Shown: in pieces, positions 7,367 through 56,939 of the stretch
Layout: each line of letters starts with the position of its first letter
Numbering within the stretch: position 1 is the first letter of the stretch
Source of the DNA: Prevotella sp.
GTDB lineage: Bacteria > Bacteroidota > Bacteroidia > Bacteroidales > Bacteroidaceae
NCBI GenBank assembly: GCA_016284635.1
Contig: JAEEPF010000002.1
Location: forward strand, 1-64,000
Direction of reading: 5' to 3'
Length of the DNA stretch: 64,000 bases
Translations under genes and position numbers: made by a program
Notes under the pieces: generated by a model
Databases searched by the model: none
What the model was told of the DNA's origin: nothing
The model's input: only the letters and a program-made list of their open reading frames with translations

Positions 7367-8587
7367 ATGACACACAAGGTAACACATCACACTCGACTTA
7401 CAGCTCTGCTGATATTTTTCACATTTTCACCTTTTCAGCTTTTCACTTCCTCAGCCTTTGCCCAAAAGCGTCAGATGGCTGAAGCAGAGAACTACCTGCG
7501 CAGTGGCAAGAACTACGACAAGGCAGAGCAATTGATGACGAATCTTCTGAAAGACTCCGCCAACCAGCAGAATCCACGTATCTACGACCTCTGGTTACAG
7601 GCCGTAGAGAAGCAATACCAGGCCATCAACGAGAAGATGTACAAACATCAGGCCGTCGACACCCTGAAGCTCTTCACCCTCAACCGTCGTATCTTCTCCA
7701 TTGCAGAAACCCTTGACTCCATCGATGCGAGGCCGGACAAGAAGGGTAGGGTAAGCCCCGACTATCGGAAGGACAACTCCTTGCGCCTGCTCGGCTATCG
7801 TCCGAACCTCTTCTTCGGAGGTGCCCATCATCTGCGCAAGGGCGACTTCCCGACGGCCTACGATTTCTTCGAGACCTATATCGACTGCGCCCGTCAGCCG
7901 CTATTCACGGATCATGACCTGATGAACACCGACGCCCGTATGGATGAGGCCGCCTATTGGGCCACCTACTGCGGCTATCGCATGAACGATCCCGTGCTCA
8001 CCCTCCGTCATCACGAACTCGCACGTCGCGATACCAGTAAACTTGATTATACCCTCCAATACGTCGCTGAGGCATGGAAGCAGTTGGGCGACAAGCAGCG
8101 CTATGCGGAAATACTGTGGGAGGGCTTCGCCTTCTTTCCTCAGAGCACATATTTCTTCCCCCGTCTGATGGATGCCTATACCGCCAAGGGCAACTATGAA
8201 CAGGCACTCTCCGTCGCAGACGAGGCACTCAAGGCCGACTCCCTCAACGAACTCTATCTTTTCGCCAAGTCCACCATGCTTCTCAATCTCGGACGCAATG
8301 CCGAGTGCCTGGACATCAGCAACCGCCTCATCGCCATCAACGACCAGATGGCTGATGCCTACTACAATGCCGGCACAGCCTGCCTGAACATTATCCTCAA
8401 GATGGACTCCCGTCGCCATAAGAAACAGATCCGCAAGATGTACCAGAAGGCGCAGCCGTATATGGAGACTTACCGTCAGCTCGCCCCTGAGGCGAAGGAC
8501 AAATGGGGTCCTGCACTTTATCGCATCTATTTCAATCTGAACCTCGGAAAACAGTTCGATGAGATAGACAAAATCTTAAAGAAATAA
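7367..8587 (+). CDS. Secreted TPR-type protein
   Basis: Signal peptide plus helical repeat segments; 406 aa. Confidence 0.6.
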   Translation: MTHKVTHHTRLTALLIFFTFSPFQLFTSSAFAQKRQMAEAENYLRSGKNYDKAEQLMTNLLKDSANQQNPRIYDLWLQAVEKQYQAINEKMYKHQAVDTLKLFTLNRRIFSIAETLDSIDARPDKKGRVSPDYRKDNSLRLLGYRPNLFFGGAHHLRKGDFPTAYDFFETYIDCARQPLFTDHDLMNTDARMDEAAYWATYCGYRMNDPVLTLRHHELARRDTSKLDYTLQYVAEAWKQLGDKQRYAEILWEGFAFFPQSTYFFPRLMDAYTAKGNYEQALSVADEALKADSLNELYLFAKSTMLLNLGRNAECLDISNRLIAINDQMADAYYNAGTACLNIILKMDSRRHKKQIRKMYQKAQPYMETYRQLAPEAKDKWGPALYRIYFNLNLGKQFDEIDKILKK

Positions 8588-10440: not shown

Positions 10441-10525
10441 CCTACGGATTATACGGATTTTACGGATTTAAAACTTGCTGGAAATCAGTATAGATTTAAT
10501 CCGTAAAATCCGTAAAATCTGTAGG
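10441..10525. repeat. Imperfect palindrome between convergent genes
   Basis: cctacggattatacggattttacggattt ... atttaatccgtaaaatccgtaaaatctgtagg. Confidence 0.85.
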
Positions 10526-10534
10526 CTATTAATT

Positions 10535-16538: not shown

Positions 16539-18206
16539 TTACGTGTAGAGGTAGCGCTTGATGGAGCGCTTGGGGGTTTTTTCGAATTCCTCGGTGCGGA
16601 TCTCGATCTCGGAGACTTTCTCGTAGGCGGGAATCATCTCGTTGAGTCCGTTGAGGTTCTGGTCCATGATGTTGCGGATGTCGGCATCGGTGAACTTCAT
16701 GTTCTTCGCCTCGTCGTAGTCGGGATAGACCAGGGCTACGAGCTTGTTGTCGCGCTGTACGACGACGCTCTCCACAACCATCGTCATCGAGTTGAGTTTG
16801 TCTTCGATCTCCTCGGGATAGATGTTCTGTCCGTTGGGGCCGAGGAGCATGTTCTTGATGCGGCCGTTGATGAAGATGTTGCCGGCATAGTCCATCGTGC
16901 CGAGGTCGCCGGTGTGGTACCAGCCTTCGTGGTCGAGGGTCTCGCGGGTGGCCTCGTCGTTCTTGTAGTAGCCGAGCATCGTGTTCAGTCCGCGGGCGAG
17001 GATCTCGCCAGGCACGTTCTGCGGATCGGGCGAGTCGATCTTCACCTCCATGTGGTAGGCAGCCTTGCCGCAGGATCCGGGGGCGAAGTAGTGCCAGTCT
17101 TCGTAGCCGATGATCGGTGCGCACTCCGTAGCGCCGTAGCCGACGGTGTAGGGGAAGTCGATGCGCTTGAGGAACTGCTCCACCTCCTGGTTGAGGGCTG
17201 CTCCGCCGATGATGACCTCGTACATCTGTCCGCCGAAGGCCTTGACCACCTCCTTGCAGATCATCTCGCGCACCTTCTTGGAGATGACGGGCATCTGCAG
17301 CAGCAGGCGCATGCGGTTGTTCTGCACCTTCGGGAACACCTTCTTGCGGATGATCTTCTCGATGATGAGCGGTACGGCGATGATAATGACGGGCTTGACC
17401 TCGGCCAGGGCCTGCGCGATGATGGCGGGCGAGGGCACACGGTTGAGGTAGTAGACGTGACAGCCGTGGAGGAACTCAAAGATGAACTCGAAGGCCATAC
17501 CGTACATGTGGGCCATGGGGAGCATGGAGATGACCTTGTCGCCGCACTTGATGATCTTGCCCAGCACGTGCTCGGCGAAGTCGTAGTTTGACCAGATGGC
17601 ACGGTAGGGGAGCATTACGCCCTTGGAGAAGCCCGTGGTGCCGCTGGTGTAGTTGATGAGTGCCAGCTCGTCGGGCGACTGCTCGTGGTAGTAGCTGACG
17701 TGCTCCTTGCGGAAGTATTTGGGGAACTTCTTGCCGTAGAGTTCGTTGAGGTGTTCGCGGGCGTAGGTGAGCTTGTCGGTGCGCGAGACCATCAGCGAGT
17801 AGTCAGGATTGTTGATGATGCCTTCGAGTCGCGGCATCTGCATGGGGTCGATGATCGTGGCCACGTGGTCGCCCACGAAGAGCAGGCGGGCCTCGGAGTG
17901 GTTGACGATATTATGGATCTGCTCCGCATTGAACTCGTGCAGGATGGGTACGGCGATGGCGCCGTAGGTGAGCGTGGCGAGGAAGGCCACGGCCCACTGG
18001 CTGGAGTTGCGCCCTGCGAGGGCGATCTTGTCGCCCTTCACGATGCCGCTGTTCTCGAAGAGAATATGGAGTTTCTCAATTTTACGTGCCACGTCGTGAT
18101 ACTGCAGCGTCTGGCCCTTATAGTCAGTCAGTGCGTCGCGGTCCCAGTTGTCGACGATGCTCTTCTGGATCAATGAGTTAAAACTAGGTATCTGTTCCAT
18201 AAGCAA
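16539..18206 (-). CDS. AMP-binding acyl-CoA synthetase/ligase, copy 1
   Basis: INYTSGTTGFSKGVMLPYR, YGATECAPIIGY, GWYHTGDLG. Confidence 0.93.
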   Translation of the reverse strand: MLMEQIPSFNSLIQKSIVDNWDRDALTDYKGQTLQYHDVARKIEKLHILFENSGIVKGDKIALAGRNSSQWAVAFLATLTYGAIAVPILHEFNAEQIHNIVNHSEARLLFVGDHVATIIDPMQMPRLEGIINNPDYSLMVSRTDKLTYAREHLNELYGKKFPKYFRKEHVSYYHEQSPDELALINYTSGTTGFSKGVMLPYRAIWSNYDFAEHVLGKIIKCGDKVISMLPMAHMYGMAFEFIFEFLHGCHVYYLNRVPSPAIIAQALAEVKPVIIIAVPLIIEKIIRKKVFPKVQNNRMRLLLQMPVISKKVREMICKEVVKAFGGQMYEVIIGGAALNQEVEQFLKRIDFPYTVGYGATECAPIIGYEDWHYFAPGSCGKAAYHMEVKIDSPDPQNVPGEILARGLNTMLGYYKNDEATRETLDHEGWYHTGDLGTMDYAGNIFINGRIKNMLLGPNGQNIYPEEIEDKLNSMTMVVESVVVQRDNKLVALVYPDYDEAKNMKFTDADIRNIMDQNLNGLNEMIPAYEKVSEIEIRTEEFEKTPKRSIKRYLYT

Positions 18207-19865
18207 TTAGATATTCTGATATAAGTAGCGTTTGATACTTTTTTTAGGTGTCTTGGCGAACTCTTCCTCATGCAGCTGGATGGCAGCGATACGGCTGTAG
18301 ACGGGCAGCTGGTTGTTGAGTTCCTGACGGTTCTGCTCCATGATCTCCTCCAGTTCTTCCTGGCTGAAGTTCACGATCTCGTCCTTGTCGGGGTGTACGA
18401 GTGCGACGAGCTTGTCGCCTCGCTGAATGACGACGCTCTCTGAGACCATCGCCATTGAGTTGAGCTTGTCTTCGATCTCTTCGGGATAGATGTTCTGTCC
18501 GTTGGAGCCGAGGAGCATGTTCTTGATGCGACCGCGGATGAAAATATGGCCTGTGGGAGCCATCGTGGCGAGGTCGCCGGTGTGGTACCAGCCTTCGTCG
18601 TCGACGACCTGACGGGTGGCCTCGTCGTTCATATAGTAGCCGAGCATGACGTTCGTGCCTCGGGTGACGATCTCACCTGGGATATTTTCCGGATCAGAGG
18701 AGAGAATCTTCACCTCCATACGGTCGACGGGCTTGCCACAGCAGCCAGCGACGAACTCCGTGTGGTCGCAGTAGGAGATGAGCGGTGCGCACTCTGTGGT
18801 GCCGTAGCCCACGGTGACAGGGAAGTTGATGGAGAGCAGGAACTCTTCGACCTCCTTCGACAGGGCGGCACCTCCGACAATGACCTCATAGGCCCGTCCG
18901 CCAAAGGCATTGTACACCTCCTGACAGATGCGCTCCTTCACCTTCTTCGACACCACGGGCATCTGCAGCAGCAGGCGCATGCGGTTGTTCTGGATCTTCG
19001 GGAACACCTTCTTGCGGATGATCTTCTCGATGATCAGGGGGACGGTGACAATGAGCGTCGGCTTCACCTCTGCGAAGGCCTGCGCGATGATGGCGGGCGA
19101 CGGCAGACGGGTGAGGAAGAACAGGTGGCAGCCGTGGCAGAAGCCGAAGAGGAACTCGACGGCCATACCGTACATATGAGCCATCGGCAGGATGCTCAAC
19201 AGGTTGTCGCCAGGACGCACCTTCTTGCCCAGACGGCTGATGATGAACTCAACATTGCTCCATATCGTGCGGTAGGGCAGCATCACGCCCTTGGAGAAGC
19301 CCGTCGTACCGCTGGTGTAGTTGATGAGTGCCAGCTCGTCGGCGGTGTCCTCGTGGTAGTGGACATCCTCCTTGCGGAAAGCCTTGGGATATTTGCTGCC
19401 GAACATCATATTCAAATGTTCGCGCGCGTAGGTGACGGACTCTGAACGGCTGATCATCAACGAGAAGTCGGGGATGTTGATGATGGCCTCAAGATTGGGC
19501 ATCGCCTCAGGGTCGATGGTCTTCACGGCATAGTCGCCGATGAAGAGGATGCGGGCTCCCGAGTGGTTGACGATGTTCTGGATCTGCTCACCGTTGAACT
19601 CATGCAGGATGGGCACAGCCACGGCACCATAGGTGAGGGTGCCGATGAAACTGACGGCCCAGTGGGCGGAGTTACGGCCGCAGATGGCGATCTTGTCGCC
19701 TTTCTTGATTCCGCTGTTCTCTAAAAGTATATGGAGTTTCTCTATCTTACGTGCGACATCGTGAAACTGGAGGGTGATACCCTGATAGTCGGTCAGCGCA
19801 TCCTGATCCCAGTTTTCGGTGATGGCTCTTTGGATGTGAGCATTGAAACTGCTAAATTGCTCCAT
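18207..19865 (-). CDS. AMP-binding acyl-CoA synthetase/ligase, copy 2
   Basis: INYTSGTTGFSKGVMLPYR, YGTTECAPLISY; closely similar to the abutting copy. Confidence 0.93.
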   Translation of the reverse strand: MEQFSSFNAHIQRAITENWDQDALTDYQGITLQFHDVARKIEKLHILLENSGIKKGDKIAICGRNSAHWAVSFIGTLTYGAVAVPILHEFNGEQIQNIVNHSGARILFIGDYAVKTIDPEAMPNLEAIINIPDFSLMISRSESVTYAREHLNMMFGSKYPKAFRKEDVHYHEDTADELALINYTSGTTGFSKGVMLPYRTIWSNVEFIISRLGKKVRPGDNLLSILPMAHMYGMAVEFLFGFCHGCHLFFLTRLPSPAIIAQAFAEVKPTLIVTVPLIIEKIIRKKVFPKIQNNRMRLLLQMPVVSKKVKERICQEVYNAFGGRAYEVIVGGAALSKEVEEFLLSINFPVTVGYGTTECAPLISYCDHTEFVAGCCGKPVDRMEVKILSSDPENIPGEIVTRGTNVMLGYYMNDEATRQVVDDEGWYHTGDLATMAPTGHIFIRGRIKNMLLGSNGQNIYPEEIEDKLNSMAMVSESVVIQRGDKLVALVHPDKDEIVNFSQEELEEIMEQNRQELNNQLPVYSRIAAIQLHEEEFAKTPKKSIKRYLYQNI

Positions 19866-25279: not shown

Positions 25280-25319
25280 TTCTTGCGTCCCTTCGGTAGC
25301 AAGCGGCAAAGCCGAGCGG
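25280..25319. repeat. Dispersed 40-nt structured repeat, copy 1
   Basis: TTCTTGCGTCCCTTCGGTAGCAAGCGGCAAAGCCGAGCGG, identical to 45020-45059. Confidence 0.9.
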
Positions 25320-25350: not shown

Positions 25351-26199
25351 TCAACGCTTTTTGAAATAATATTGCCCTCGCCGCCTGGTAATGCTCCCAT
25401 TGTTAATGGCATGCACGGGACAATGGTGATAACAGGCCAGACAACAAGTACACCGTCCGTTGTGAATCCACGCGGGCGGTGTTCCTTTAATATTATCCAC
25501 AGGACAGACCTTGGCGCACTTGCCGCACTTGATACACACATCTTCATCGACGGTGAATTTCCGGTCTGTAATCATCCGCTTATTGAAGTATCCGCCGATG
25601 ACGTAGGAATAGAGTCGGGGTGTGGCTCCCTTATCCAGTTCCTCGATGCCTCGACGCCGTTCCTCAATCATCTGGATGATATGGGGCAGTTGTAACTCCG
25701 CCAGTTCTATCTTCATCGCCTCCTTCTCTTCGGTATCGGTCTTCATAAACGGCAGACAGACATAGCTCTCGGGCATAATTACGGAAAACAGCGTCTCAGC
25801 CTGTAGCGGCTGACCGTCGGCAATATTCAACTCCGTATTCTTCGCCAGATCCTTGTTTAGGATCGTCATCGCTTCACCCATATTATCGCCACACGTCGTC
25901 AGCGCCCAGCAAAACGGACGTTCCTCGGAATTTCCGAATTCCGAGGCCTTGAGTTGGGGATTTCCAAATCCCCTCATCCTCAGCTTCCGAATAAACTCCC
26001 TGACAATCCCCGGTGGCTGCCAACCATGAGTGGGGAAGCAGAATCCAATCCGCTCCCCCACATGCCATTCATATTCATACTGTCCCTTCCTGATGAGGTC
26101 GGGTATGTAAAGCAGTTCTTCACCGATGGCGTCGGCAATCTGCCTTGCCACCCATCTCGTATTACCTGTGCCTGAGAAATAGAATATCATATCGGGCAC
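25351..26199 (-). CDS. EFR1 family ferredoxin/flavodoxin
   Basis: IFYFSGTGNTRWVA plus two 4Fe-4S motifs CIKCGKCAKVCPVDNI and CTCCLACYHHCPVHAI. Confidence 0.9.
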   Translation of the reverse strand: MPDMIFYFSGTGNTRWVARQIADAIGEELLYIPDLIRKGQYEYEWHVGERIGFCFPTHGWQPPGIVREFIRKLRMRGFGNPQLKASEFGNSEERPFCWALTTCGDNMGEAMTILNKDLAKNTELNIADGQPLQAETLFSVIMPESYVCLPFMKTDTEEKEAMKIELAELQLPHIIQMIEERRRGIEELDKGATPRLYSYVIGGYFNKRMITDRKFTVDEDVCIKCGKCAKVCPVDNIKGTPPAWIHNGRCTCCLACYHHCPVHAINNGSITRRRGQYYFKKR

Positions 26200-26215
26200 A
26201 AAGATACAAAGAAAA

Positions 26216-26270
26216 CCACAGATTACACAGATTCCGCAGAAAAAATCTGAGAAATCTGTGCAATCTGTGG
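26216..26270. repeat. Imperfect palindrome, CCACAGATT-type arms
   Basis: ccacagattacacagatt ccgcagaaaa aatctgagaaatctgtgcaatctgtgg. Confidence 0.8.
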
Positions 26271-26279
26271 TTTATTCTA

Positions 26280-27566
26280 TCAAATCTGGTCGAATGCCTG
26301 CGACAAATCTTCGATAATGTCGTCGATATGCTCTGTACCGATGGAGAGACGGATGGTCGACGGCGTGATATGCTGTTCGGCCAGTTCCTCAGGTGAGAGC
26401 TGTGAGTGTGTGGTGGTGTACGGATGGATCACCAGACTCTTCACGTCGGCCACATTCGCCAGCAGCGAGAAGATCTGCAAGGCATCGATGAATTTCCAAG
26501 CCTCTTCCTGTCCGCCCTTGATCTCGAAGGTGAAGATGCTGCCGCCGCCATTGGGGAAGTATTTCTTGTAGAGCTCGTGGTCGGGATGACTCTCCAGAGC
26601 CGGATGGTTCACCTTGGCCACCTTCGGGTGCTTGGCGAGGAAATCCACCACCTTCAGCGTGTTCTCCACATGCCGCTCCACACGCAGACTCAGCGTCTCG
26701 ACGCCCTGCAGCAGGATGAAAGCATTGAAGGGTGAGATGGCAGCGCCGGTGTCACGCAGGATGACGGCACGGATACGGGTGACGTATGCTGCAGCACCTA
26801 CGGCGTCGGCAAACACGATGCCATGATACGAAGGATCGGGCTTCGAGAGGGTGGGGAACTTGTCGTTCTGCTTCCAGTCGAACTTGCCACCATCGACGAT
26901 GACTCCACCGAGTGAGCTGCCATGACCACCGAGGAACTTCGTGGCTGAGTGTACGACGATGTCTGCGCCGTGCTCCAGCGGACGAATGAGATATGGTGTG
27001 CCGAAAGTATTGTCGACGATAAACGGAATACCATGCTTATGGGCGACAGCAGCCACACCCTCGAGGTTGAGCACATCGGAGTTGGGATTGCCGAAGGTCT
27101 CGGCATATACAACCTTTGTGTTGGGCTGGATAGCGGCTTCGAGGGCCTCGAGGTCATTCACGTTGATGATGGTGTTTGTGATGCCCTGTGTGGCCAGCGT
27201 GTGGGTGATGAGGTTGTACGAACCACCATAGAGGTTGTCGGCTGCGACGATATGGTCGCCATTCTGAACGATGTTCTGCAGGGCGTAGGTAATGGCAGCA
27301 GCACCAGAGGCTACGGCAAGACCTGCGACACCACCTTCGAGGGCCGCGACACGATCCTCAAACACACCCTGCGTCGAGTTCGTCAGACGACCGTAGATAT
27401 TACCGGCATCACGCAGTCCGAAACGGTCGGCGGCATGCTGGGAGTTGTGGAACACATAGCTCGTGGTCTGGTAGATGGGCACGGCACGTGCGTCGGTTGC
27501 GGGGTCTGCCTGTTCCTGGCCTACGTGAAGCTGTAAAGTCTCAAAACGATAATTCTTCTTACTCAT
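26280..27566 (-). CDS. O-acetylhomoserine aminocarboxypropyltransferase/sulfhydrylase
   Basis: ETLQLHVGQEQADPATDARAVPIYQTTSYVF; HSATKFLGGHG. Confidence 0.93.
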   Translation of the reverse strand: MSKKNYRFETLQLHVGQEQADPATDARAVPIYQTTSYVFHNSQHAADRFGLRDAGNIYGRLTNSTQGVFEDRVAALEGGVAGLAVASGAAAITYALQNIVQNGDHIVAADNLYGGSYNLITHTLATQGITNTIINVNDLEALEAAIQPNTKVVYAETFGNPNSDVLNLEGVAAVAHKHGIPFIVDNTFGTPYLIRPLEHGADIVVHSATKFLGGHGSSLGGVIVDGGKFDWKQNDKFPTLSKPDPSYHGIVFADAVGAAAYVTRIRAVILRDTGAAISPFNAFILLQGVETLSLRVERHVENTLKVVDFLAKHPKVAKVNHPALESHPDHELYKKYFPNGGGSIFTFEIKGGQEEAWKFIDALQIFSLLANVADVKSLVIHPYTTTHSQLSPEELAEQHITPSTIRLSIGTEHIDDIIEDLSQAFDQI

Positions 27567-28818: not shown

Positions 28819-28832
28819 TTTTCTTTTTTCGA

Positions 28833-28919
28833 CCACGAATTACACTAATTTCACGAATTGGTTGCGCTTGGGAAGAATCGCTGGCGATTCTAATTAGTGT
28901 AATTCGTGTAATTAGTGGT
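28833..28919. repeat. Imperfect palindrome, CCACGAATT-type arms
   Basis: ccacgaattacactaatttcacgaatt ... taattagtgtaattcgtgtaattagtgg. Confidence 0.8.
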
Positions 28920-28975
28920 TTATATTTATTAGTGTAATTCGTGAAATTCGTAAAATTCGTTGTCGTTATAAAAAA

Positions 28976-30325
28976 TCATTTAATTGTCGTTTCTTCGAGG
29001 AATGTCTCGAACTGGCTTTGGTAGCCGTTGAACACATTGATGTCCACATCTCCCTGGATACCAGCCACGCGACCGTCTGGACACAGCTGCCAGTAGGTTA
29101 GCTTCACATCGGGTTTATACTCGCTGTATCGGGCTATCCACACGCCGTAGTCGCGTTTCAAGTCAGTCTGTTTCGAGAGGTGTTTGTTCACGAACATCTG
29201 GTTCACGTAGAGAATGGGCTTAACACCACAATAACGCTCCACCATATTCAACCATGTACGTATGTGCGCGAACATCTTCTCTTCTCCGCCCATCATCTTA
29301 ATCTGTGCGTCCGTAGGCTCCACGTCGAGCACGGGAGGCAGATCGCCACTTCGGAACAGCGTGTTGCGGATGAACCATTGTGCCTGTTGTGCCCCGCTGC
29401 TGCGTACCGACCAGAAGTGGTAGGCACCTGTACGGATGTTGCGCTTGCGGGCCTCGGTATAGTCTTTCAGATAGAAACGGTTGCGGATGGACGTGCCTTC
29501 CGTCGACTTGATATAGACGAACGACACAGGATAGTCTACCGTGCCGCTGACATTTTGGCTGCCACGCTTCCCCACGCTGGTGATGCGCAGTTTGTCCCAA
29601 TGGATGGGGAGTGCCCTCCGTCCCTTGCCGTGCTGGTATTTGGCGATGTCGATGCCGTAGATACGTTCGGTGGTGTAGCGCATCCTTTCGCCCATAAACC
29701 GGTCGTTCTTCCAGATACCCACCCTCAGGTTTGTCTCTCCCTCTGCGCTGGTCTCTGCCGCCAGTCCGAAACCGTTACGACGATCTTCTGCCCAATGGCC
29801 TTCATAATAGCCGCGATTGTCGGTACTGGTATAGGCACCGTGACCCTCGGATTTCATCTCACGGAAGTCGCCTGTATAGTTTCCCAACGTGTCAATCCTG
29901 ATACCCGTCGTGAGTGAGTCGTCGCGACAGGTTCCCACAACCGTGCGCCCCAACGAATCGATTGCGAGGGCTGTCCCTTCCCGGCGATGACCTTCCCACC
30001 GTCCAACGTTCCAGACAGACACATGCTGGTCGATATCCACCTTGTGTCGCTTGCCGCCCGCAAAGGCGACCACCATCTCATACCCCTCGTCCTGCATGTT
30101 GTGCCGCTCCATGTAGTAGCCGATCTCTTTTGAAAGTGTAAAAGAATCTTGTGGAAGGTTGAATGTGGAATGTGGAATGAGATTACCTTCTGCGCTTGAT
30201 CTATCCTCATTCCTCATTCCACCTTCCACATTCCTCAAATCCCCCATCCACAGCGAGGCTGAGAGGAGTGCAGCTAAGGGGAATAATATGCTGAATAATA
30301 TCTTTTTCATTTTTTTAGGCCGCAA
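28976..30325 (-). CDS. MORN-repeat + GH25 lysozyme fusion
   Basis: GH25 motifs YGIDIAKYQ, VSFVYIKSTEGTS, PPVLDVEP, DVDINVFNG; N-terminal MORN-like repeats. Confidence 0.85.
   Translation of the reverse strand: MRPKKMKKILFSILFPLAALLSASLWMGDLRNVEGGMRNEDRSSAEGNLIPHSTFNLPQDSFTLSKEIGYYMERHNMQDEGYEMVVAFAGGKRHKVDIDQHVSVWNVGRWEGHRREGTALAIDSLGRTVVGTCRDDSLTTGIRIDTLGNYTGDFREMKSEGHGAYTSTDNRGYYEGHWAEDRRNGFGLAAETSAEGETNLRVGIWKNDRFMGERMRYTTERIYGIDIAKYQHGKGRRALPIHWDKLRITSVGKRGSQNVSGTVDYPVSFVYIKSTEGTSIRNRFYLKDYTEARKRNIRTGAYHFWSVRSSGAQQAQWFIRNTLFRSGDLPPVLDVEPTDAQIKMMGGEEKMFAHIRTWLNMVERYCGVKPILYVNQMFVNKHLSKQTDLKRDYGVWIARYSEYKPDVKLTYWQLCPDGRVAGIQGDVDINVFNGYQSQFETFLEETTIK
30151..30236. repeat. In-frame palindromic element in the GH25 gene
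   Basis: Arms gtggaaggttgaatgtggaatgtggaatga / ctcattcctcattccaccttccacattcctc around core gattaccttctgcgcttgatctatc. Confidence 0.8.
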
Positions 30326-35661: not shown

Positions 35662-37293
35662 ATGATGAAAAAGCTATTATTATCTATCCTTTTAACACTC
35701 CTGCCAATCTTGGCAAGTGCAGAAACCGTAGAAATCGACGGCATTTGGTATAACTTAGTCCCCAAAGCCCAAGAAGCTGAAGTGACCAAGAATCCTAATA
35801 TCGAAATCGAGTATGAACTCTGTAGGTCTGATAATGGCCTTCTATATAGTTCAGGTGATTATTCTGGCACCATTGAGATTCCTGCATCCGTCACATATAA
35901 CGGAGTTAAATATAGCGTGACCTCCATCGACGACTATGCTTTCTATGAATGTAGAGACTTGACCTCTGTCGCAATTCCCAGTAGCGTAATCTCCATTGGT
36001 AATTCTGCTTTCTACTACTGCAGCGGTCTGACCTCCGTCACAATTCCCAGTAGCGTAATCTCCATCGGCTTAGATTCATTTTATGGCTGTACAAACCTGA
36101 CCTCTGTTCATATTTCAAGCCTTGAGTCTTGGTGTAATACGTCTTTCAATGGTCCGTGGATAAATTCACATCATCTTTATTTGAATGGTGAGGAAGTAAA
36201 AGATCTAATCATCCCGAATAGCGTTACAAAAATCAGCAGCTGGGCTTTCTCTTGTTGCAAAGGCTTGACCTCGGTCACCATCCCCAACAGCGTGACCTCC
36301 ATCGGCAGTTCTGCTTTCTTTTCTTGCATAGGCTTGACCTCAGTCAACATTCCTAATAACGTAACTTCCATAGGCAGTTCTGCTTTTGAAGGTTGCACAG
36401 GCTTGACCTCCGTCACTATTTCAAATAGTGTGACCTCCATCAGCGATAAGGTTTTCCGAGGTTGCACTGGTCTGACCTCCGTCACCATTCCAAACAGCGT
36501 GACCTTTATTGGCGATTCTGCTTTTGAAGGTTGCACTGGTCTGACCTCTGTCAACATAGGTAATCGTGTGACCGACATCGGGGATCAATCTTTCTATCGC
36601 TGTAGCAACTTAACATCTATCACAATCCCAAACAGTGTAATCTACATTGGATATTCTTCTTTCCAGTATTGCAGTGCTTTGACCTCTGTCAATATAGGCT
36701 TTGATGTATTTATGTCTATCTCCAATCTTGCCTTTGCCAATTGTGAAGATTTGACAGACGTTTTTTGCTTGGCCGAAAAAATATCAAAAGTTGATCCTTA
36801 TGATTCGGCTGATGATATTGAAGGCTTCTACACTTCTCCTAGTGCCTTTAATGATTCTTATCCACAAGCGATAACTCTTCACGTCCCTGCAGGTTCCGTC
36901 GAGGCATATCGCTCAAGAGAACCTTGGAACCAATTCAAGGCTATTTTGGCCTTAGAAAATGTTGATAATCCTGAAATAAAAAAATGTGCAATGCCAGAGA
37001 TTAGCTATGCAAACGGAAAAGTTTCTTTAAGTTGCGAAACAGATGGCGTTGACTTCATATCAGAAGTGACAGTCGCCGATGCCAAGAAATATTATGATTC
37101 TGAGTTCACTCTGTCTCAGACCTACAAAATCACCGTCTATGCCACAAAAGCCGGCTATGAGAACTCCGACATTGCGACTCGCGAGATCGTTATAGAAAAC
37201 GGCCAATCCACCCTCTTCGGCGACACAAACAAAGACGGCAATGTAAATGTTACTGACGTCGTAAAGCTTATAGACATCATTTTGAACAAATAA
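35662..37293 (+). CDS. BspA-like leucine-rich repeat (LRR_5) secreted protein with dockerin-like C-terminus
   Basis: Repeats CTGLTSVTIPNSVTSIGDSAFEG; C-terminal GDTNKDGNVNVTDVVKLIDIILNK. Confidence 0.9.
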   Translation: MMKKLLLSILLTLLPILASAETVEIDGIWYNLVPKAQEAEVTKNPNIEIEYELCRSDNGLLYSSGDYSGTIEIPASVTYNGVKYSVTSIDDYAFYECRDLTSVAIPSSVISIGNSAFYYCSGLTSVTIPSSVISIGLDSFYGCTNLTSVHISSLESWCNTSFNGPWINSHHLYLNGEEVKDLIIPNSVTKISSWAFSCCKGLTSVTIPNSVTSIGSSAFFSCIGLTSVNIPNNVTSIGSSAFEGCTGLTSVTISNSVTSISDKVFRGCTGLTSVTIPNSVTFIGDSAFEGCTGLTSVNIGNRVTDIGDQSFYRCSNLTSITIPNSVIYIGYSSFQYCSALTSVNIGFDVFMSISNLAFANCEDLTDVFCLAEKISKVDPYDSADDIEGFYTSPSAFNDSYPQAITLHVPAGSVEAYRSREPWNQFKAILALENVDNPEIKKCAMPEISYANGKVSLSCETDGVDFISEVTVADAKKYYDSEFTLSQTYKITVYATKAGYENSDIATREIVIENGQSTLFGDTNKDGNVNVTDVVKLIDIILNK

Positions 37294-45019: not shown

Positions 45020-45059
45020 TTCTTGCGTCCCTTCGGTAGCAAGCGGCAAAGCCGAGCGG
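45020..45059. repeat. Dispersed 40-nt structured repeat, copy 2
   Basis: Identical to 25280-25319. Confidence 0.9.
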
Positions 45060-46034: not shown

Positions 46035-46050
46035 AATTATTTATTTTTAA

Positions 46051-46120
46051 CCACGAATTTCACGAATTTCACGAATTTTGCTGCGCACAGAATAATTAGT
46101 TTAATTAGTGTAATTAGTGG
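46051..46120. repeat. Palindrome inside rnf operon (rnfE-rnfA gap)
   Basis: ccacgaatttcacgaatttcacgaatt ttgctgcgcacag aataattagtttaattagtgtaattagtgg. Confidence 0.85.
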
Positions 46121-46123
46121 TCG

Positions 46124-46705
46124 TTAATTTCTAAGTTTATTCACGATCGCGATGAGGAAGCCGAGGGTGATGAATGCACCCGGAGGCAGTACGAAAAGCA
46201 GGATGTTGTAGGTCTCGGGCAGGAGGGTCAGGCCGAAGATGGAGCCGTTGCCGAGGAGTTCACGACAGATGCCCAGAAGGGTCAGTCCGAGGGTGAAGCC
46301 GAGACCGATACCAATGCCGTCGAAGAGGGATGCCACGGGCGACTGCTTGGAGGCGAAGCCCTCCGCACGGCCGAGGATGACACAGTTCACGACGATCAGC
46401 GGGATGAAGAGTCCGAGAGCCGCGTCGATGTCAGGCAGATAGGCCTTGATGACCAGCTGCAGGATGGTGACGAAGGCGGCAATCACGACTATGAACACAG
46501 GGATGCGCACCTTGTCGGGGGTGACGGACTTCAGACAGGAGATCACAACGTTGGTGCAGATGAGCACCGCCATCGTGGCGAGGCCCATCGACATACCGTT
46601 CAAGGCAGAGGTGGTCGTGGCCAGCGTAGGACACATACCGAGCATCAGGACGAACGTGGGGTTCTCCTTGACGATGCCGTTCTTGATGATACTGATATAA
46701 CTCAT
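46124..46705 (-). CDS. rnfE: Electron transport complex subunit RnfE/RsxE
   Basis: NGIVKENPTFVLMLGMCPTLATTTSALNG. Confidence 0.94.
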   Translation of the reverse strand: MSYISIIKNGIVKENPTFVLMLGMCPTLATTTSALNGMSMGLATMAVLICTNVVISCLKSVTPDKVRIPVFIVVIAAFVTILQLVIKAYLPDIDAALGLFIPLIVVNCVILGRAEGFASKQSPVASLFDGIGIGLGFTLGLTLLGICRELLGNGSIFGLTLLPETYNILLFVLPPGAFITLGFLIAIVNKLRN

Positions 46706-48339: not shown

Positions 48340-48358
48340 ATACTCTTTTTCTTTTTAA

Positions 48359-48427
48359 CCACGAATATCACGAATTTCACGAATTTTGCTGCGCATGAAT
48401 AATTAGTGAAATTAGCGTAATTAGTGG
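48359..48427. repeat. Palindrome inside rnf operon (rnfC-rnfD gap)
   Basis: ccacgaatatcacgaatttcacgaatt ttgctgcgcatg aataattagtgaaattagcgtaattagtgg. Confidence 0.85.
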
Positions 48428-48433
48428 TCGTTT

Positions 48434-49801
48434 CTATTTTTTTGCGGTTCTTGATCTGATAATGCCCATGACGGTGGATTTGCCCTGACGGATGTTGTCG
48501 AGCAGCGGACGGTGGGCAGGACAGGTGAACTGGCACGAGCCGCACTCGATACAGCTGACAATGTCCTCATGCTCACAACGCTCCCAGTTTTTCACCTCGG
48601 AGAGCTTGGCGAGGAGATAGGGTTCCAGTCCCATCGGACAGACACCCACGCACTTCGCACAACGGATGCAGGGCTGGGGTTCCTTGCGACGGGCCTCGTC
48701 GTCGGAGATGATTGTCACGGAGTTGGTTCCCTTGCAGATGGGCACCTCGACGGATGTCAGGGCCTTACCCATCATCGGACCACCGGCGAGCAGTTTGTTG
48801 TCGCCCTCAGGCATACCGCCACAGGCGTCGATGAGATCCTTCATCGGAGTTCCCATACGGACGAGGAAGTTGCCTGGATGAGCCAGACGTTTACCCGTGA
48901 CGGTGGTGTAACGCTCAAAGAGGGGTTTACGCTTCATCACAGCCTCATAAACAGCGAAGGCCGTTCCTACGTTCTGCACGATGGCACCGACGTTCACAGG
49001 GATGGCAGGCGGTGCAGGCACCTGACGCTTGATAACAGCATCGACAAGCTGCTTCTCACCGCCTTGGGGATAGCGCTGCTTCAGGGGAACAACTTCTACG
49101 TTATACGTTGAACCGCTGAATTTCTCGGCGCATTTCTTCGTGAGGAGCTCGATGGCGGCGGGTTTGTTGGTCTCAATACCGATATAACCGGTCGTGACCT
49201 TGGCGGCCTTCATCAGGAGTTCGAGACCGATGAGGATCTCGTCGGCGTGTTCCATCATCAGGCGGAAGTCGGCGGTGATATAAGGCTCGCACTCTACGGC
49301 ATTGATGATGACACACTCGGCCTTGGCAGTCGGCGGAGGCGTGAGTTTGATGAAAGTGGGGAAACAAGCACCACCCATACCCACGACACCGGCATCCTTG
49401 ATACGGGTGACGATCTCCTCTGGAGTGAGTTCGGGATGTGCCTCGACGGTCTCCAACTTGTCGGAGCGGTCGATGGTCTCTTCCCACTCGTCGCCTTCCA
49501 CATTAATAATAATCACGGGCTTGCGATAGCCTGTGGCGTCGATGGCGGTATCGATCTTAAACACCGTACCGCTGACGGACGAGAAGATCGGGGCAGACAC
49601 GAATCCGCCAGCCTCGGCAATCATCGTACCGACCTTCACCTTGTCGCCTTTCTGGACAACGGGCTTGGCGGGCGCACCGATATGCTGCGAGAGCGGGAAG
49701 ATGGCCTGCTTGGGCAGGGCTGCTTTCTGCGTCACAGCCTCATGAGTGAGTTTGTTCTCTTCGGGGTGTATTCCACCTATACTAAAAGTTCTGATATTCA
49801 T
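48434..49801 (-). CDS. rnfC: Electron transport complex subunit RnfC/RsxC
   Basis: GGIHPEENKL, GMGGACFPTFIKL, CIRCAKCVGVCPMGL, CIECGSCQFTCPAHRP. Confidence 0.95.
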   Translation of the reverse strand: MNIRTFSIGGIHPEENKLTHEAVTQKAALPKQAIFPLSQHIGAPAKPVVQKGDKVKVGTMIAEAGGFVSAPIFSSVSGTVFKIDTAIDATGYRKPVIIINVEGDEWEETIDRSDKLETVEAHPELTPEEIVTRIKDAGVVGMGGACFPTFIKLTPPPTAKAECVIINAVECEPYITADFRLMMEHADEILIGLELLMKAAKVTTGYIGIETNKPAAIELLTKKCAEKFSGSTYNVEVVPLKQRYPQGGEKQLVDAVIKRQVPAPPAIPVNVGAIVQNVGTAFAVYEAVMKRKPLFERYTTVTGKRLAHPGNFLVRMGTPMKDLIDACGGMPEGDNKLLAGGPMMGKALTSVEVPICKGTNSVTIISDDEARRKEPQPCIRCAKCVGVCPMGLEPYLLAKLSEVKNWERCEHEDIVSCIECGSCQFTCPAHRPLLDNIRQGKSTVMGIIRSRTAKK

Positions 49802-53580: not shown

Positions 53581-56400
53581 TTAATCAAACAAATTCAGTT
53601 TATGTTTTCTGGCTTCCTCGAGCGACAGGAGTTCATCCTGAGACTGCTGATAATCATCACGCAGTTTCTGGTATTTCTCCGTCAGTTCGTGTTCCAGCTG
53701 CTCACCGTCGTTCAACAGCCGTGCAGCCACGAGGGCATTCTGCGAGGCGTCCTTCAACCACACCACTGGTCCTGCATAGACAGGTGCGATCTTCAAGGCC
53801 ACATGCAGTTCGCTGGTTGTGGCACCACCAATCATAATGGGGATGTCCATGCCTGCCCGCTGCAGTTCACGGGCCACATTGACCATCTCTTCCAGACTGG
53901 GCGTAATCAGACCACTGAGTCCGATGATGTCCACCTGTTCGTCTTTGGCTTTACGCACAATCTGTTCGGCAGGCACCATCACTCCCATGTCGATGATCTC
54001 GTAGTTGTTGCACGACATCACCACACCGACGATGTTCTTGCCGATATCATGCACATCGCCCTTGACAGTAGCCAACAAGACTTTTCCTGCACGTTTTCCA
54101 CCTTCCGCCTTGTCTGCTTCGATATAGGGCTGGAGAATATTTACGGCCTGCTTCATCGTTCGGGCAGTCTTCACCACCTGCGGCAGGAACATCTTGCCTT
54201 CACCGAAGAGTTGTCCGACGGTGTTCATACCTGCCATCAGAGGCCCTTCGATAATATTCACGGCCTTGGGATATTTCTCAAGTGCTTCTTTCAAGTCTTC
54301 TTCCAGATGGTCGCCGATGCCTTTCACCAATGCCTGCGAGAGTCGTTCCTCAACGGATTGTCGAGGAGTGTGGAGTGAGGAGTGTGGAGTAAGATTACCT
54401 TGGAGGAAAGAGTCTGCGGCAGAAGTATTCTCACTCCTCACTCCACACTCCTCACTCCTCAAAATCTCTTCCGCCAGTTGCGTCAGACGATCAGCAGCAT
54501 CCTTCTTTCTATTCAGGATGACATCCTCGATAATTTCAAGCTGATCTTGAGGAATATCGTTGTATGTGACTTTAGATGAAGGATTTACGATACCAAAGTC
54601 CATGCCTTTCCCTATGGCATGATAGAGGAATACAGCGTGCATCGCCTCGCGGATATAGTTGTTGCCTCGGAAAGAGAATGAAAGGTTGCTGATGCCGCCA
54701 CTGATATGCGCGCCAGGCAGATTCTCGTGAATCCATGCCGTCGCCCTGATGAAGTCGGCAGCATAGGCATCATGTTCCTCCATACCTGTAGCCACAGCCA
54801 ACACATTCGGATCGAAGATAATATCCTGCGGCAGCATACCTACTCTTTCTGTCAGAAGCTTATAGGCTCGCTGGGCAATCTCAATACGACGCTCATAGGT
54901 AGTGGCCTGTCCCTGTTCGTCGAAACACATCACCACCACGGCAGCACCCAGTCGCTTCACATCCTGTGCATGGGTGATAAATCGCTCTTCACCTTCTTTG
55001 AGTGAGATGGAGTTGACGATGGCCTTGCCCTGCACGCATTTCAGTCCTGCCAGAATGACCTCCCAGTCTGAGGAGTCAATCATCACAGGCACCTTGGCGA
55101 TATCAGGCTCTGCAGAGATGCGATTGAGGAAATTCACCATCTCTGCCTTGGCATCCAACAGGCCGTCGTCCATATTGATATCGATGACGAGGGCACCATC
55201 TTCCACCTGTTTACGGGCGATACTCAATGCTTCGTCATAGCTTTTTTCCTTAATAAGACGCAGGAACTTCCGTGAGCCAGCCACATTACAGCGTTCGCCG
55301 ACATTCACGAAATGCACTTCTGGACTAACCTCCAACAGCTCCAAGCCAGAGAGCCACATAGAAGTAGGTTTTGGAGCAGGCACGTGGGGCTTTTTCCACA
55401 CTTCAGGTAATCTCTCACCTCTTACATCTCTCCACTCACCTCTAACCAATGGCACATACTTGGCGATAAACGTCTCATCAGTACCACAACAGCCACCGAT
55501 GACATTCACCAGCCCTTCGTCGATAATCTCACCAATCTTGGGAGCCATCGTCTCTGCCGTCTCGTCATAGAGTCCCATGGAATTGGGCAGTCCTGCATTG
55601 GGATGACAGGTGATATAATAAGGAGCCTTTCGGGCAAGCTCTCGCAGATAGGGTTTCATCTGGTCGGCACCAAACGAACAGTTCAGTCCGACGGAGAAGA
55701 CCGGATAGCTGCTGACACTGGCCAGGAAGGCATCGAGCGTCTGACCGCTGAGCGTGCGCCCAGCCAGATCGCTGATGGTCACAGAGAGCATGACAGGCAC
55801 TTCCTTGCCCTGCTCCACCATCGCCCGCATCGCAGCATCGATGGCCGCCTTGGCATTCAGCGTGTCGAAGATCGTCTCTATCAACAGGGCATCCACGCCT
55901 CCGGCAATCAGACCGTTCATCTGTTCGAGATAGGCTGCCACCAGTTCGTCATAAGTGAGGTCTCTGGCAGCAGGATCGTTCACATCGGGCGACATCGAAC
56001 AGGTCTTATTCGTCGGCCCCGCAGAGCCAGCCACAAATCGTGGTTTCTCTGGGGTTGAGAACTCATCTGCCACCCGACGGGCAATCCTCGCACCCTCGAA
56101 GGCCATCTCATAGGCATAATCGCCCAGATGATAGTCAGCCTGAGAGATGCGCTGGCTGCTGAAGGTGTTGGTGGAGATGATGTCGGCACCCACTTCGAGG
56201 TACTGACGATGGATATCTGCGATGACGTCAGGACGGGTTAAGGAGAGTACGTCGTTGTTGCCTTTCAGCAACCCCGGCACATCCTGAAAACGGTCTCCCC
56301 TGAAATCCTGTTCAGTGAGGCCATAACCCTGTATCTTCGTTCCCATCGCTCCGTCGAGCACGAGAATCCGTTCTTTTACTATGTCGTTAAGTCTACTCAC
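53581..56400 (-). CDS. metH: Cobalamin-dependent methionine synthase, no AdoMet reactivation domain
   Basis: [78 protein letters not shown]; ends after B12 domain. Confidence 0.94.
54363..54460. repeat. In-frame palindromic element in metH
   Basis: 28-nt arms GAGGAGTGTGGAGTGAGGAGTGTGGAGT / ACTCCTCACTCCACACTCCTCACTCCTC, 3 mismatches, around 42-nt core. Confidence 0.9.
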
Positions 56401-56911: not shown

Positions 56912-56939
56912 TATATTTATTCGTGTAATTCGATTAAAT

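Follow-up and report, generated by a model that had tools for sequence, protein, structure and literature searches.

How do two unrelated genes of one bacterium come to carry, in the same reading frame, what appears to be the same palindromic insert? The question is raised by a GH25 lysozyme-like gene and by metH, which both lie in the 64,000-nucleotide stretch of contig JAEEPF010000002.1 analysed here (hereafter the window), part of a draft Prevotella sp. MAG (G000; 3.67 Mb, 304 contigs, 83% complete); all the evidence below comes from MAG sequence. The first-pass annotation had listed the arms of the GH25 insert, its peptide LRNVEGGMRNEDRSSAEGNLIPHSTFNLPQDS and the metH counterpart of that peptide, all of which proved correct, and had proposed that the two are alike. 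This likeness holds: the two copies align with a score of 46, whereas the best of 500 shuffles reached 24, and with the alignment restricted to the non-repetitive core the true pair still outscores 1999 of 2000 shuffles. The RNA hairpins lie 6.0 (GH25; z -6.0) and 7.9 (metH; z -7.9) standard deviations below dinucleotide-preserving shuffles, and no known RNA family in Rfam matched the window or the example loci searched. As judged from Pfam domain borders, the metH copy sits in the linker between the pterin-binding and B12-binding_2 domains, and the GH25 insert is found immediately behind the signal peptide (Table 1).

Table 1. Positions in the window of the two host genes and of their palindromic inserts
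Feature	Position	Strand	Basis
Host gene 1: GH25 lysozyme-like protein with N-terminal signal peptide	28976..30310	-	PF01183, E 1.2e-31; translation
Palindromic element, GH25 copy, in frame, sense; encodes LRNVEGGMRNEDRSSAEGNLIPHSTFNLPQ	30149..30238	-	covariance model, 83.2 bits
GH25 copy, 5' arm (gene sense): iterated heptamers GAGGAATGTGGAAGGTGGAATGAGGAATG	30204..30238	-	unit statistics
GH25 copy, core (gene sense, about GATAGATCAAGCGCAGAAGGTAAT), kept between copies and species	30182..30203	-	
GH25 copy, 3' arm (gene sense): CTCATTCCACATTCCACATTCAACCTTCCACAA	30149..30181	-	pairs with 5' arm
Host gene 2: metH (homocysteine S-methyltransferase, pterin-binding and B12-binding domains)	53584..56400	-	PF02574, PF00809, PF02607, PF02310
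Palindromic element, metH copy, in frame, sense	54357..54464	-	covariance model, 106.9 bits

Copies and host genes in the genome

Searching G000 for further copies gave 25 BLAST matches with the GH25 copy as the query and 85 with a uvrA copy, and a covariance model returned 85 matches over both strands, equivalent to about 43 places (copies were gathered by BLAST, profile and covariance-model searches, the surroundings of nearly all places were inspected, and the list of weak copies is incomplete). Together with the shuffles, this copy number rules out chance or low complexity as the source of the likeness, and the inserts of GH25 and metH are members of a single family. The outcome that the first-pass annotation had named as fatal to its proposal, no further copies and an alignment no better than that of shuffled sequence, is thus not what we observed.

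Long ORFs contain 29 full copies, all of which leave the ORF open and encode 25-50 extra amino acids each. Identified by Pfam, the hosts are uvrA (two copies), dnaG (two), ispH, hflX, feoB, metH and the GH25 gene, along with genes for a LytTR response regulator, a membrane protein, a chorismate-binding enzyme, a TrmB-like methyltransferase, an LPG-synthase-type membrane protein, a RecD-like helicase (two), a DUF5715 protein, an HU-CCDC81/SPOR protein, an MFS protein, SufB/D, a PD40 protein, an M16 peptidase, an MMPL exporter (two), a U32 peptidase, TamB and two ketoacyl synthases; a MurF-like ligase was named by sequence only. Four more in-frame copies combine GGAGTCA-type arms with an unchanged core, in genes named by sequence as phosphoglucomutase-like, two paralogous histidine kinases and an HD-domain protein. 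Single-arm half-elements also keep the frame; their hosts are murA and the genes for a PEP-synthase-like protein, an ABC ATPase and a 5-FTHF cyclo-ligase. No pathway is common to the host genes, and full intergenic copies are almost absent from this genome.

A second, insert-free copy of ispH, hflX, dnaG or murA was not found in the G000 draft, and the uvrA with inserts is the only close copy in that genome (one paralogue is 49% identical); the insert-bearing genes are therefore not spare copies. The two uvrA inserts are 99% identical to each other by BLAST and the first is missing in G018, the nearest genome in our sample (about 82% DNA identity to G000), which implies recent copying. In the M16 peptidase copy (L056:249-378), a second, unrelated palindrome, CCCCTCCTACTCAGGAGGGG, lies within the core, so that the elements are nested.

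At three loci (L063, L071 and L299) the element is situated at the gene start, where its pyrimidine-rich heptamer arm gives the hydrophobic stretch of an apparent signal peptide. In the window itself, the signal peptide FFTFSPFQLFTSSAFAQ of the plus-strand gene at 7367-8587 is encoded (7400-7465) by TTTTCACC-type octamer repeats, as if it were derived from a repeat arm. The window also contains six intergenic hairpins (1966-2040, 10441-10527, 26199-26288, 28822-28949, 46040-46138 and 48348-48449) with arms of 8-9-nt iterated units of the CACGAATTT, TACGGATTA and CACAGATTA types, each hairpin having its own unit and the same architecture as the coding element. Other repeats in the window are two adjacent minus-strand ORFs at 16539-19865, which are tandem paralogues (71-87% identity over long stretches, spacing 1668 nt), a 40-base sequence, TTCTTGCGTCCCTTCGGTAGCAAGCGGCAAAGCCGAGCGG, identical at 25280-25319 and 45020-45059, 20 kb apart (a third copy, 70% alike, lies at 56939), and 69-nt tandem repeats at 35914-36720 in the ORF 35662-37293.

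Architecture, reading frame and orientation

The element is a hairpin of 76-161 nt (mostly 76-108 nt in G000, and about 112 nt in the relative G094) in which arms of iterated heptamers surround a conserved core, and it ends in TTYGWGGAG. The 5' arm comprises about four heptamers in GGAGTGA, GGAGTGT, GGAGGGT or GGAATG- versions, the core is of the type GAATACTYCTGC.GCAGA...CCAAGGTAATCTC or has the shorter form GAATAGTTCAAGTGCAGAAGGTAATCTC, and the 3' arm is the complement of the 5' arm, save for a conserved mismatch near the core. The indel that the first-pass annotation had noted between the GH25 and metH copies, preserving frame, belongs to a variation in core length seen across the family. 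Arm covariation within copies exceeds all 500 shuffles and far exceeds all slid partners, and a single genome can join one core to several arm types (GGAGTGA, GGAGTCA and GGAAAGT). Terminal inverted repeats are present, there is no transposase gene inside the element, and no target-site duplication was found in G000 or G094, where the direct repeats at the ends are no longer than those of shuffled pairs.

The register of the 5' arm is identical in all 29 full in-gene copies. In that register only the second unit could yield an in-frame TGA, which is present there in 0 of 24 aligned copies against 9 of 24 for the mirrored unit of the 3' arm (Fisher p 0.0016). This avoidance of TGA, absent in the mirror, indicates selection on the inserts as translated sequence. 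A (GGAGTGA)n arm would present TGA once per 21 nt in every frame, and the TGA adjacent to the core is nearly invariant, so that essentially one register would be easy to keep open; replacing TGA by TGT or GGN in just one unit would suffice to open it. The first-pass annotation had offered selection for a translatable insert or a mechanism producing one: the register and the missing TGA bear out selection, and since purifying selection after insertion accounts for the frame, no dedicated mechanism restricted to translatable inserts need be invoked.

Core scoring placed 24 of the 29 copies in the sense orientation and four in antisense (one dnaG copy, the MFS gene, the MurF-like gene and one ketoacyl synthase gene), with one ambiguous. 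At least one open antisense frame is available in 16 of the 24 aligned copies, and the p value of the sense bias varies with the null, from about 0.002 (if 40% antisense is expected) to 0.02. The bias is real but not absolute: the same orientation that had been claimed from the two window copies extends to most of the family, yet strict sense orientation is ruled out by the four antisense copies, genic copies in G094 run both ways, and a strand-specific mechanism is not favoured.

Empty sites, recurrent loops and distribution in the genus

Comparison with relatives revealed sites lacking the insert and showed that the inserts occupy variable loops. At the first uvrA site, G000 has 72 bp (24 amino acids) more than G018, G025, G034, G067 and G094, and the loop has 36 residues against 12 in most relatives in the genus. 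At the second uvrA site and in dnaG, ispH, murA, metH and the chorismate-binding gene, relatives have either no insert or a different one. Against these relatives, of which the nearest is only about 82% identical, the insertion is not a clean addition but replaces a few residues of the old loop.

The second uvrA site has been expanded in 16 distinct loops of the genus (a sample weighted toward close relatives), 9 of which fold more than 3 standard deviations below shuffles, compared with 3 of 96 control windows in the same genes (p 4e-7). The palindromes found at this site are unrelated in sequence: G000 and two other MAGs carry GGAGTGA arms and G018 carries GTTGACA arms, G067 has CCTCCCCTGTTTAGGGGAGG, and the arms in G101 are CCCCTCCC. 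The palindrome of G101 shares its core with the window element (GATACTTCT...GCAGCAAGGTAATC). Arm sequences that differ by species at one loop were also seen in ispH and dnaG. Among 148 genomes of the order from outside the genus, the best uvrA matches listed lack the expansion of this loop and span 366-387 nt for 123-127 query residues, i.e., the basic loop length; on this ground, palindrome-driven loop growth looks like a habit of the genus. One murA loop (L205, L207, L211 and contig C149 of G000) contains half-elements in several species, each with the common heptamer type of its own genome, a pattern that points to insertion on several occasions or to concerted conversion of the units.

Matches to the peptide profile are patchily distributed over 29 of 120 genus genomes, and the named carriers are Prevotella, Prevotellaceae or, in one case, Bacteroidaceae MAGs, many of them from ruminants. 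One of the two richest genomes is G094 (99% complete), with 85 covariance-model matches to elements that have similar heptamer arms and another core; the 20 places sampled there are mostly intergenic, with genic copies in both orientations. Full intergenic copies, almost absent from G000, are thus numerous in G094. The genes between adjacent G094 copies are ordinary (tRNA methyltransferase, Band_7, HAD, aminotransferase and POR), and a composite transposon between those copies was rejected. Unrelated arms are joined to the same core in different species, with GGAACGA-type arms on the G000-type core in G022 and G067 and CCCCTCC arms in G101.

Precedents and competing explanations

The closest known precedent is provided by the palindromic elements of Rickettsia and Wolbachia. 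Rickettsia palindromic elements (RPE) were reportedly described by Ogata et al. in 2000, and for gmk the RPE-bearing host protein is made and active. The first report listed 19 in-frame genic insertions (PMC2229807), R. conorii has 44 RPE integrations, nearly half of them within ORFs (PMC10969869), and different RPE groups occupy the same loci in different species (PMC3767692). Both RPE and the Prevotella elements are small palindromic repeats with a long stem-loop and terminal inverted repeats, lie in frame and free of stops in conserved protein genes (29 full copies here), recur at loci where the group differs by species, and overlap in their kinds of host gene, such as tRNA m7G methyltransferase and excinuclease (PMC2229807, PMC3767692, PMC10969869). 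In contrast to RPE, which measure 105-146 bp, the Prevotella element is mostly 76-108 nt long with a few copies up to about 160, occurs in another phylum, has arms of iterated heptamers that vary by species around a kept core, and is mostly genic in G000. Given the differences in length and phylum, we do not class it as an RPE and liken the two by features, not by descent.

Other small repeats resemble it less closely. MITEs (Correia/NEMIS, ERIC, YPAL) are likewise non-autonomous, with terminal inverted repeats and a stem-loop, and some bacterial MITEs fuse in frame or form signal peptides (PMC2229807); the Prevotella element lacks a detected target-site duplication and for this reason is not classed with them, and the ordinary genes between neighbouring G094 copies offered no autonomous partner. 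REP/REPIN sequences, mobilised by RAYT, are also short hairpins in many copies, but have GTAG/CGTC tags (PMC3733652) rather than TTYGWGGAG ends, and the Prevotella copies are coding. The known dispersed Prevotella repeat PINSR (188 bp, intergenic, without terminal inverted repeats) is a different element. Our search of open-access papers found no account of such elements in Bacteroidota, though subscription journals may contain one.

We consider it likely that the family is a selfish, non-autonomous palindromic element that works like RPE and persists in frame in tolerant loops. A small palindrome would be copied in trans to numerous sites in the genome of a rumen-type Prevotella. Within genes it would persist only when inserted into a surface loop or a linker between domains, with a length divisible by three and no stop codon; as in RPE, translation would then give the host protein a hydrophilic peptide of low complexity, which it tolerates. 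Mobility is here something that we infer, because neither a target-site duplication nor a partner transposase was found, and the surface location of the inserts and their tolerance, as opposed to benefit, are likewise presumed. What counts against this reading is the scarcity of full intergenic copies in G000, which is unexpected if a selfish element simply spreads and is purged from genes; the replacement of a few old loop residues at the insertions also speaks against it. We think it unlikely that the palindromes did not transpose but arose, and are kept alike, through replication slippage, repair templated by the hairpins and gene conversion between copies, with tolerant loops merely accumulating such DNA. 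Arms made of slippage-like heptamers from a limited pool, the change of arms by species at one loop, the single-arm half-elements, with those of murA carrying the species' own unit type, and the missing target-site duplication would all fit such an origin, but a non-repetitive core common to tens of unrelated loci requires copying between loci, and the second uvrA loop keeps its basic length in the best matches listed from the order outside the genus.

Less probable still is that the host benefits from the inserts, with selection acting on the mRNA hairpin or on a hydrophilic linker peptide. Such a benefit would explain the preference for genes in G000 and the excess of sense copies despite the open antisense frames, as well as the pyrimidine arms that form signal-peptide cores in three genes; against it stand the lack of a common pathway, the missing inserts at the same sites in most relatives and the mostly extragenic position of similar elements in G094. 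Gene preference and sense orientation in G000 would also follow if insertion were directed by transcription or passed through RNA, entering genes preferentially on the sense strand, an idea that the four antisense copies of G000, together with the two orientations and many intergenic copies of G094, make very improbable. Mobilisation of REP/REPIN-type hairpins by a RAYT (Y1 HUH) transposase has almost no standing: although the hairpins have a conserved mismatch near the core and 73 of 120 genus genomes encode Y1 proteins (PF01797), the rich genome G094 has no PF01797 match at E 0.001 and in G000 the domain is present merely as a fragment, so that Y1 transposases are unlikely agents and RAYT/IS200 mobilisation through PF01797 was rejected. 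The element can be explained without a Y1/RAYT transposase. Returning to the selfish element, a bolder version, which we hold to be doubtful but worth stating, is that it is a modular mobile palindrome whose core is conserved while its arms are swapped or rewritten, and which repeatedly lands in the same loops across the genus.

To our knowledge, frequent in-frame palindromic inserts have been described as peculiar to Rickettsia and Wolbachia, which are obligate intracellular bacteria. Their presence in about 30 genes of a gut Prevotella, and in many relatives with independent arm families at the same loops, indicates that the process does not depend on genome reduction. The inserts also represent dozens of natural insertion experiments in housekeeping proteins such as UvrA, DnaG, IspH and MurA, and comparison of species can test how the elements move and why the frame is kept. 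Caution is warranted in the use of automated annotation, since that of Prevotella proteins includes translated repeat DNA. If the modular palindrome were true, it would constitute a lineage-specific engine for the growth of loops and the origin of signal peptides.
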